Shown: positions 7,936-21,205 of the stretch, in pieces
How the letters are laid out: every line of letters starts with the position of its first letter
Numbering within the stretch: position 1 is the first letter of the stretch
DNA from: Alphaproteobacteria bacterium
GTDB taxonomy: Bacteria; Pseudomonadota; Alphaproteobacteria; Micropepsales; Micropepsaceae
NCBI GenBank assembly: GCA_947474565.1
Contig: CANJIS010000001.1
Location: forward strand, 62,001-126,000
DNA: 64,000 bases
Direction: 5' to 3'
Notes under the pieces: generated by a model
Databases searched by the model: none
What the model saw: only the letters and a program-made list of their open reading frames with translations
What the model was told of the DNA's origin: nothing
Translations under genes and position numbers: made by a program

Positions 7936-8012
7936 GCCCTCGCTTACGCTCGGGCGTTCGTCGCTCGAAATGGTCCACTGGACCATTTCGTTCGCTACGC
8001 GAACCGCTCCTC
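7936..8012 (+). repeat. Triple-hairpin intergenic repeat, copy A
   Basis: Three hairpins follow each other. The first (7936-7955) has a GCCC/GGGC stem with a TC/TC internal loop. The second is a 25-base palindrome (7966-7990) with core GGTCCACTGGACC. The third is GTTCGC-TAC-GCGAAC (7990-8004). The element ends CTCACGG. Related copies lie at 20327-20391 and 50124-50205. It is flanked by two imperfect copies of the glnA terminator region (7886-7925 and 8015-8054). The rest of the gap to 8148 holds nothing else I recognise. Confidence 0.8.
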
Positions 8013-19080: not shown

Positions 19081-19260
19081 GCAGGACCGCGCCGAAGGCG
19101 CCGCCCTGGCCAGAATATGAGCCGGGCCAGCCTTCCCGCTGACATTTCGATACAAAATCCGCCCATTCAGCCAGGGTTTAGGCGTCTGCCTTAACGCTTT
19201 TTTACGAAGGTCAGCGCCAACATTGCCTCGTCAAGCTGCCAAGCGGCTGTGGGGGTATGC

Positions 19261-20310
19261 GTGTTTAAATCTGACCGGGAACAAGCGCTCGCAAAAACTG
19301 CGGTCGCCCTGATGGGCGAATGCAATGTCGTTCCCGCGCCCGAAAATTTCGAACTCTTCTATGCCTATGCCGCCGGCGAGAACCCGGGTGTCACCCAGGT
19401 GATCGGCGCCATGGTGGCGGCGAAGAAGCCCTTCACCCCCGAAATTCTTTCCGACCTGCGGATGCGCTGCCTGAGCGGCGCGCGCGCCGCCCGTGCCATG
19501 GATACCGTCGGCACCGGCATGTCGCAGACCATTGACCAGGTGCTGGTCAAGCTGGAAGCCGCCGCCCGCCATACCGAGGCGTATAGCAGCACGCTGTCCG
19601 CCGCCAGCGGCGAGCTTTCCGCCGGCCAGTCGCCGGCCGACCTGCGCAAGCTGGTGGAAGATTTGATCGGCGCCACCCGCGCCATGGAATCCAAGACCAA
19701 GGCGCTGGAAAGCGAATTGCAGAAATCCTCGGATCAGGTAGTCGAATTGCGCGGCGCGCTGGCCGATGTGCGCAAGGAAACCATGACCGACCCCTTGACC
19801 GCCATTGCCAACCGCAAGGCGTTCGATGCCGCCATGGATGCCGCGCTGATGGCGGTAGCCAAAGGCGACAATGTCTCGCTGATGATGTGCGACATCGATC
19901 ATTTCAAGAAATTCAATGACAGTTGGGGCCATCAGACCGGTGACCAGGTGCTGCGCCTGGTGGCGAGCTGCCTGTCGGAAAATGTCAAAGGCCGCGACAC
20001 CGCCGCCCGTTATGGCGGTGAGGAATTCGGCGTGCTGCTGCGCGGCGCCAGCATCACCGATGCCGCCCGCATCGCCGAACAGATCCGCTTGGCGGTGCAG
20101 GGCCGCAAGCTGGTGAAGAAATCCACCGGCACCACGCTGGGCACCATCACCATTTCCATCGGCATCGCCCAGTTCAAGGCGGGCGACACGGCGGAAAGCG
20201 CGATCCGCCTGGCCGATGCCTGCCTGTACGGCGCCAAGCAGAATGGCCGCAATATGGTCATGAGCGAAGGTGATTCCCGCATGGTAACGCTGGAATCCAC
20301 GGCCGCCTAA
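19261..20310 (+). CDS. GGDEF domain protein, probable diguanylate cyclase
   Basis: This soluble protein of about 349 residues has a conserved N-terminal helical region (FELFYAYAAGENPGV), a coiled-coil stretch, and a C-terminal GGDEF domain with an intact active-site loop RYGGEEFG and MCDIDHFKKFND, so it should make cyclic di-GMP. The product-inhibition I-site RxxD is degenerate: the expected position reads KGRD. The GTG at 19261 follows a GGGGG stretch. An in-frame GTG at 19249 is the alternative. The last nine codons are repeated, slightly altered, 109 bases downstream beyond a palindromic element. Confidence 0.88.
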   Translation: MFKSDREQALAKTAVALMGECNVVPAPENFELFYAYAAGENPGVTQVIGAMVAAKKPFTPEILSDLRMRCLSGARAARAMDTVGTGMSQTIDQVLVKLEAAARHTEAYSSTLSAASGELSAGQSPADLRKLVEDLIGATRAMESKTKALESELQKSSDQVVELRGALADVRKETMTDPLTAIANRKAFDAAMDAALMAVAKGDNVSLMMCDIDHFKKFNDSWGHQTGDQVLRLVASCLSENVKGRDTAARYGGEEFGVLLRGASITDAARIAEQIRLAVQGRKLVKKSTGTTLGTITISIGIAQFKAGDTAESAIRLADACLYGAKQNGRNMVMSEGDSRMVTLESTAA

Positions 20311-20326
20311 CTGAGCGTGTTTCCGA

Positions 20327-20391
20327 GCCCGCTTCGCGGGCGTTCGGCCGGGCAAAAGGTCCACTGGACCTTTTGCTAACACCGGCCTCAC
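20327..20391 (+). repeat. Intergenic palindromic repeat, copy B, flanked by a duplicated gene end
   Basis: The first hairpin is GCCCGC-TTC-GCGGGC (20327-20341). The second is the 25-base palindrome 20352-20376 with core GGTCCACTGGACC, followed by a tail ending CTCACGG. The third hairpin seen in copies A and C is mostly lost. The 28 bases at 20283-20310, which end the GGDEF gene, recur at 20392-20419 with 24 identities, including the in-frame stop. The element therefore sits between two copies of the gene's 3' end. Confidence 0.8.
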
Positions 20392-20428
20392 GGTTGCCCT
20401 GGAATCCACCGCCGCCTAATCTCGCCCT

Positions 20429-21205
20429 ATGGCGAACAGCTTCGATCGCGTGACCGTGACCGCACATGATTCCGTGGCGGTGCTGGCTTTCCATCAACCC
20501 GAAGTGATGAACGCCTTATCCGCCCGCATGATCGCTGGCGCCATGGCGGCTTTGGACCACATTCAGGCCGACGGTTTTCGCGCCTTGGTGCTGACCGGCA
20601 CGGGCAAGGCCTTTTGCGCCGGGGCCAACCTGGCGGAAGTGGAACCCGGTCTATCCGCCGGCGACATGCTGGAGCGGGTCTATCATCCCTTTCTGTACCG
20701 CCTGCGCGATTATCCCCTGCCCGTGATCACGGCGGTGAATGGCGCGGCGGTGGGCATCGGTATGAGCTTCGCCTTGTCGGGCGATCTGTGCATTGCCGAC
20801 CGGCTGGCGTTTTTCCAGCAAGGCTTCGGCAAGCTGGGGCTGGTGCCGGATGGCGGCTCGACCTGGCTGCTGCCGCGCCTGATCGGGCTGGCGCGGGCGC
20901 GCGAGCTGGCGCTGCTGAATGAAAAGCTGGCGGCCGAGACGGCGCTGGATTGGGGCCTGATCAATCAGGTCGCCGAGGATGGACGCTTGATACAAACCGC
21001 GATTCATTGGGCGAAACAGTTGGCGGCGGGGCCTTCATCCATCGCCCTCACCCGCAAGCTGTTCCGGGACAGCCCCGGCAACAGCTATGAACAGCAATTG
21101 GCGGCGGAACAGCAGGCCCAGCAACAGGCCGCTGGGAGCCAGGATTTTCAGGAAGGGCTGGCGGCATTCCAGGCCAAGCGCCCGCCTAACTTCACGGGGA
21201 AGTGA
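20429..21205 (+). CDS. Enoyl-CoA hydratase/isomerase family protein (PaaG-like)
   Basis: This 258-residue crotonase-fold protein has the oxyanion-hole segments AFCAGANLAEVE and NGAAVGIGMSFALSGDL. It also has GFGKLGLVPDGGSTWLLPRLIG. The PDGGSTW form, with Asp in place of a hydratase glutamate, is typical of PaaG-type isomerases. It could act in phenylacetate or fatty-acid degradation, but no partner genes are nearby. The stop codon overlaps a GTGA, so it is close-coupled to the downstream M13 peptidase gene. Confidence 0.88.
   Translation: MANSFDRVTVTAHDSVAVLAFHQPEVMNALSARMIAGAMAALDHIQADGFRALVLTGTGKAFCAGANLAEVEPGLSAGDMLERVYHPFLYRLRDYPLPVITAVNGAAVGIGMSFALSGDLCIADRLAFFQQGFGKLGLVPDGGSTWLLPRLIGLARARELALLNEKLAAETALDWGLINQVAEDGRLIQTAIHWAKQLAAGPSSIALTRKLFRDSPGNSYEQQLAAEQQAQQQAAGSQDFQEGLAAFQAKRPPNFTGK

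Follow-up and report, generated by a model that had tools for sequence, protein, structure and literature searches.

Doubled gene ends beside palindromic repeats in a Rhizomicrobium-like genus: a GGDEF gene end as a possible recombination scar

Introduction

REP and BIME sequences are short, dispersed intergenic palindromes with compensatory changes. In Helicobacter, one type of insertion reportedly brings in whole gene units, and the repeats that flank them are said to be near identical. Insertion with long target duplication has been described in this organism by Nobusato et al. 2000, as cited in PMC3031569. Homology-facilitated illegitimate recombination, as described in PMC6382021, combines homology on one side with an illegitimate join on the other, and involves diverged donor DNA. 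Template-switch mutation, as introduced in PMC8794818, makes hairpins.

Some genes in a little-known group of bacteria from fresh water and soil have their final codons in two copies, often on either side of a DNA hairpin. One such doubled end, that of a GGDEF-domain gene, lies in the window, by which we mean the whole stretch of 64,000 nucleotides that was analysed. As in the insertions reported from Helicobacter, long direct repeats flank inserted DNA and there is no classical transposon; unlike in those insertions, the spacers are short hairpins and the repeats have diverged silently. Homology on one side and an illegitimate join on the other, the hallmarks given in PMC6382021, are also proposed here, without a donor; the differences from that account are that the join lies at a hairpin edge and that ComEC was not found. 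The likeness to template switching, in the form introduced in PMC8794818, is that a reverse-complement arm adjoins its source and forms a stem, but such a switch alone gives neither silent differences nor a near-native second copy. The repeat in the window resembles REP/BIME in being a short, dispersed intergenic palindrome with compensatory changes, and differs from REP sequences with a RAYT transposase in that its own genome is without a Y1 transposase. The listed titles and abstract openings on illegitimate recombination, microhomology, natural transformation and long target duplication do not describe the pattern; no wider absence is claimed.

The GGDEF gene and its two ends

The gene (19249–20310, forward strand) is an open reading frame for a GGDEF-domain protein of 353 residues (PF00990, E = 5.5e-45) with the C-terminus ...VTLESTAA. 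Its translated end including the stop codon (copy 1, 20283–20310, forward strand) recurs downstream as an untranslated gene-end copy, also with a stop (copy 2, 20392–20419, forward strand). Alignment confirms what a sequence-only reading had reported, namely 24 identities over 28 positions and a downstream copy that would read V-A-L-E-S-T-A-A-stop; the gene itself reads V-T-L-E-S-T-A-A-stop. Between the two lies a palindromic repeat element of family 1 (20327–20391, forward strand; boundary drawn from matches across the genus). It consists of a hairpin (20327–20341), GTTCGGCCGG (20342–20351), an inner palindrome (20352–20376) and an end in ..CCGGCCTCAC at 20391. The element had been placed exactly between the copies. 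This holds on the right, where it ends at 20391 and copy 2 starts at 20392; on the left, 16 nt (20311–20326) separate the stop codon from the element, and the direct repeats thus abut it on one side only. A repeat search of the window extends the match to 34 nt at 82% (20277–20310 and 20386–20419), and the six extra bases in copy 2 are the end of the repeat element, for which the matches listed across the genus stop mostly at 20391–20393. An enoyl-CoA hydratase/isomerase gene follows downstream (20429–21205, forward strand; PF00378, E = 5.6e-55).

Chance similarity of the copies is ruled out by re-pairing controls, in which 1,181 gene ends from the window's own genome (G000) were set against the downstream DNA of other genes in five runs. 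The last 24 nt of the window gene match at 21/24, a level that re-paired ends reach about 0.2 times per run; with 30 nt and at least 22 matches, no re-paired end of the own genome did so in five runs. At Rfam gathering scores the sole match in the whole window is a tRNA at 1720–1799, with none at the gene-end locus.

Ala-Ala, encoded at 20302–20307, is the C-terminus of all 34 GGDEF-family proteins read. Such protein ends can be ClpXP degrons in Caulobacter, and a role of this kind would explain why the end of the GGDEF gene is guarded.

The same gene in related genomes

The GGDEF gene was searched for in 61 genomes, and 34 loci were read: that of G000 and 33 others, among them a partial match at 42% in G003. 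The named relatives include Rhizomicrobium electricum. No fixed threshold was applied, and some loci end less than 350 nt downstream of the gene. By 18-mer score G000 (0.94), G027 (0.83) and G035 (0.78) stand out, the next best being 0.72.

Three relatives are informative, besides which the other 29 of the 32 orthologs apart from G000 show no outstanding second end. In G009 (78% at the amino acid level), the same element occupies the corresponding position in like orientation; its inner palindrome is compensated (GCTCC/GGAGC), there is no second end, and the match to the element query stops at query position 192. In G035, a 30-nt gene end is duplicated around another, hairpin-rich spacer. In G027, an end of about 20 nt is repeated nearly adjacently, with no element. 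A second end is absent from 18 further genus loci taken from named records, some of them conspecific (best 13/18), and from G063, G078 and G074 within the 160 nt examined. One of the 18, L121, is with G009 one of the two nearest relatives of the window, at a similar distance, and lacks the element as well.

G035 and G027 duplicated their gene ends independently, and the arrival of an element is thus not enough to account for the duplication. The sequence-only reading had named, as evidence against a role of the element, relatives that carry the same tandem end without it. G027 does carry a tandem end with no element; the case is nevertheless only half made, because the duplications in G027 and G035 are lineage-specific and not the same sequence as that in the window.

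For G035, a relative with a single end is available. The gene body of L135 is 0.89 identical to the G035 gene, and the DNA behind its one end is the DNA that lies behind copy 2 in G035. The stop codon and the next two bases of L135 match G035 copy 1, and its end codons are equally near both copies (0.89 each). In G035, copy 2 closes with 21 nt, TGA included, that are identical to the native ends of G063 and G078. The single end of L135 and this match therefore indicate that a single-end site became double on the G035 branch, using a version of the end known elsewhere. As far as these alignments go, the double end would consist of a former single-end site plus the end version of other species, and either copy may be the newcomer.

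Palindromic repeat families

Family 1 is dispersed and palindromic: an outer hairpin is followed by GTTCGGCCGG and by an inner palindrome based on GGTCCACTGGACC, and the element ends in CCTCAC. The own genome measures 2.18 Mb, and in the 1.24 Mb searched sixteen copies pass the pattern and pairing test, counting only those with at least 8 of 11 inner pairs. Numbered by distance from the centre, inner pairs 7 and 8 are formed in 16/16 copies (with three pair types), pair 12 in 15/16, and pairs 10 and 11 in 10/16; these counts lean towards pairing, as the copies were picked for it, while this choice of copies does not account for the variety of pair types. The family is largely intergenic, 2/16 copies overlapping a called gene.

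Fifteen of the 16 copies adjoin a testable gene end, and by the gene-end test only the one in the window is accompanied by a duplicated end. The second family-1 palindrome of the window (7966–7990, forward strand) has no gene-end duplication beside it (best 12/24). The proposal that the element's landing made the duplication, and that this explains why such repeats are tolerated, is therefore not supported by 14 of the 15 testable copies in the own genome, nor by the relatives: G009 has the element without a second copy, L121 has neither, G035 is duplicated around another hairpin, and G027 has no element. The accompanying proposal, that coding function was preserved, fares better: the translated end keeps its sense (34/34 proteins end in Ala-Ala) and the differences between the copies respect the code.

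Across 69 genus genomes, the element query finds matches in 33, including matches to the gene part of the query. Most of the matches listed end at query positions 192–197, which correspond to 20391–20396 of the window, and the second gene end is absent from the matches listed, the own locus excepted. Of recombinases, only the Y1 (REP-type) transposase PF01797 was searched for; it was found in 13/41 genus genomes and in none of G000, G009 and G035, and family 1 could for this reason not be linked to a REP transposase.

G000 also has a second dispersed family of palindromes (TTGGTCGCGCGGCC ... GGCCGACGCTCC), with copies, for example, at C1:130358, C3:70507 and C7:11788. A strict pattern finds eight copies of family 2 in 1.24 Mb, and two of the eight stand at duplicated gene ends (DUF815 and ilvD/edd). 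In both of these, as in the window, the second copy starts at the element edge.

Doubled ends in other genes and species

At the DNA level, the last 30 nt of each gene were compared with the following 330 nt, at a threshold of at least 22 matches. This returned real cases at 4/1,180 gene ends in G000, 1/347 in G035, 0/348 in G006 and 1/262 in the 18 further genus loci; a lysine-rich low-complexity match (C4:35296) was left out. The random control gave 0 per run for G000, G006 and the outside loci, and 0.20 per run for G035 and the 18 genus loci. Six of 2,137 gene ends in the Rhizomicrobium-like genus, against 0/756 outside it (62 loci), is not a significant difference.

At the protein level, nine genes of G000 repeat at least 5 of their 8 C-terminal residues, compared with one in the control. 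The genes taken as real are the window GGDEF gene, an ilvD/edd-like dehydratase, DUF815, ftsK, ahcY, metW and kup. In kup, a potassium transporter gene (C2:91615–93579, L073), about the last 400 nt are copied again after about 20 nt, with no element and many silent differences; this tandem is perhaps a larger version of the same type of scar.

The end of ftsK is duplicated in 8/29 species read, four of which were flagged by script and four by eye; the partial G029 was dropped from this sample, as were seven matches without loci. Some of these cases are probably shared by descent, since G032 and G062 have a common altered first copy. In G030 (L269), end and spacer are repeated as a longer unit, and the stop is lost from the second copy.

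For closer comparison, 14 cases were picked by hand, which biases the set by residues. Left out were kup, with its second copy of about 400 nt and no element; C1:180026 and C6:14607, weak at 5/8 residues; C2:23886 of G006, which resembles a tandem paralog; L197, L150 and L167; and ftsK of G016, G030 and G032, whose second copies have no stop at the same place. In Pseudomonas tehranensis (L197, 4964–5380), an open reading frame's end is repeated, together with the adjoining downstream DNA, in an identical copy about 170 nt farther on; this repeat is of a different, younger kind.

Silent divergence and decay

In the six cases from the unbiased DNA scan, the copies differ at 5, 2 and 18 first, second and third codon positions. 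The third-position excess (18/25) has p = 9e-5 against an expectation of 1/3 and p = 0.02 against 1/2. The corresponding counts in the hand-picked 14 are 15, 3 and 75 (75/93 at third positions), making 67 silent and 12 replacement codons. The extreme is ilvD/edd, where 8/12 codons differ between the copies, all silently. The stop codons of the two copies differ in 8/14 cases. Because the differences sit at third codon positions, both ends appear to have diverged under coding constraint.

Some second copies have since decayed. In ftsK, copy 2 no longer has its stop in G016 and G030, and G032 has changed residues and a displaced stop. Third-position bias and decay together therefore imply that both copies were shaped as coding sequence and that the second now seems to be debris. 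The same decay led to the rejection of copy 2 as a functional peptide, and frame-linked recoding of copy 2 was rejected on the grounds that the spacing of the copies keeps no constant frame. Except in G030, the similarity ends at the stop codon.

Copy 1 has the rarer codons in 10/14 cases, by one codon table for all genomes, and the lower GC content in 10/14. Gene ends are generally less codon-adapted (0.59 vs 0.68). Over 865 genes of G000, the mean log codon weight falls across the last 20 codons, from -0.41 at position -20 to -0.91 at the last. Certain species-specific residues are common to both ftsK copies: ...ADR in G006, ...DDR in G035 and GF..DHDR in G000.

Orthologs were available for 11 of the 14 cases (metW, G035 C2 and L124 lack ortholog sets). 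On average copy 2 is nearer to them in 10/11 gapped comparisons, with a tie in G027, and in 11/11 ungapped ones. The margin of copy 2 over copy 1 is wide for ilvD/edd (0.83 vs 0.72) and for ftsK of G006 (0.79 vs 0.65) and G062 (0.79 vs 0.70), and small for ahcY (0.78 vs 0.77), G000 ftsK (0.69 vs 0.66) and the window, where gapped identity to 36 orthologs averages 0.57 vs 0.56. Measured against the nearest relative by gene body, copy 2 is closer in the window (G009), G027, ilvD/edd and ftsK of G000, G006 and G062; DUF815, G035 GGDEF and ftsK of G035 and G001 are ties, and copy 1 is closer in ahcY (G036). The downstream end looks like the older one in several loci other than that of the window. 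For the window itself, G009 is nearer copy 2 (0.50 vs 0.46) and L121, the second nearest relative, nearer copy 1 (0.71 vs 0.62), and the weak support that an ungapped comparison gave to an older copy 2 disappears in the gapped one with more relatives.

Origin of the doubled ends

The best explanation, to which we assign a probability of about 0.4, is that the doubled end is a recombination scar: a hairpin edge would be where two versions of the gene's 3′ end, already diverged, came to stand in tandem. Another lineage would have supplied homologous DNA, which matching sequence admitted on one side and which was joined illegitimately at the hairpin edge on the other. One end would then be translated, and the other left as debris beyond the hairpin. 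The palindromic repeat would mark, and probably shape, the join, be it as a hairpin edge, a splint or a stall; it would not have transposed there and made a target duplication in the same act. Either end may be the foreign one that entered, and the joining chemistry is conjectural. The scar is put first because it accords with the silent differences, with the single end found in the G035 relative L135, and with a junction lying at the hairpin edge. Independent cases occur with different hairpins.

This reading is weakened by several observations. The species-specific residues shared by the copies want a close donor, yet the silent sites are far diverged. The rarer codons and lower GC of copy 1 are not expected of ordinary alleles within one genus. 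The nearest relatives give a mixed picture, and a donor allele with the element was not found. Of the DNA uptake genes, DprA was found in the genome and ComEC was not. Upstream of GGDEF copy 1, the foreign-tract score is -7.7, compared with a mean of 1.0 (sd 5.0) in 11 controls, two of which are as low or nearly so.

A somewhat less probable explanation is that the hairpin templated a duplication in place: the gene end would pair with an inverted copy after the stop, a flap or template switch would duplicate the end, and copy 1 would then be silently recoded at speed, because selection favours a terminator loop with less structure or disfavours direct-repeat deletion, with copy 2 too young to decay. 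A perfect reverse complement (8–11 nt) of the start of the duplicated stretch indeed lies 1–12 nt after the first stop in ftsK (in three of five species tested), ilvD/edd, ahcY and metW, and the spacer can therefore pair with the start of copy 2. Inverted matches of at least 8 nt occur in 7/14 rows, against 5.2% of 400 control gene ends; 6/7 lie at most 5 nt from the copy boundary, three of these six rows being ftsK. A T-rich run often stands behind the arm, and the two may together act as a terminator. Spacers measure 2–91 nt across the 14 cases; all 13 tested have more structure than the mean random 3′ region, but only four of them fall in the lowest 5%. The residues common to both copies, the codons and GC of copy 1 and the longer repeat unit of G030 ftsK also agree with an origin in place. 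Strong selection on silent sites would be required, however: in ilvD/edd, 8 of the 12 codons of copy 1 would have to change silently, with copy 2 remaining close to the orthologs. Copy 1 weakens folding in only 7/14 cases, and the longest inverted match is just 6 nt in the window and in ftsK of G000 and G001.

An unlikely explanation, in line with the sequence-only reading, is that the palindromic element was inserted and duplicated a long target site that included the gene end. The right junction is the exact element end, and the family-2 elements at DUF815 and ilvD/edd also end at the copy. Landing does not fit all the same, because the family spreads without duplication (found at 1/15 testable copies of family 1 and 2/8 of family 2), the left side is 16 nt off, and the copies differ, mostly silently; the own genome, moreover, is without a Y1 transposase. 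At a similarly low probability, a recurrent process may swap the 3′ end of a gene for a silently recoded version plus hairpin and leave the old end behind, ftsK and the window GGDEF gene being repeated targets.

Still less likely is a tiny mobile or integrative cassette made of gene end and hairpin, which would carry a recoded end in the way that islands restore the gene they enter. Several loci at which a recoded first copy precedes a near-native end, and the 8/29 species struck at ftsK, would suit a cassette, but each gene would require a separate unit, spacers of 2–91 nt are small, and the element family spreads without a gene end. Least probable of all is an older tandem duplication unrelated to any element, with abundant repeats nearby by chance: the element-free tandem of G027, the 30/32 other orthologs without duplication and spacers whose structure exceeds that of other 3′ regions only modestly speak for it, and against it stand lineage-specific codons common to the copies (the EST order in the window, CTC in G035 and its relatives) and repeat edges that meet the copy at several loci.

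Biological significance

The doubled gene ends look like a recurring scar of DNA patching at gene ends rather than the work of a simple jumping element. Mostly silent divergence between neighbouring gene-end copies, one of them apparently dead, is a record of recombination or recoding that ordinary mutation hardly gives. If the pattern is general, it would provide a readable fossil of the replacement of gene ends together with their terminators, and sequence comparison could then test what part small palindromic repeats play at recombination joints.
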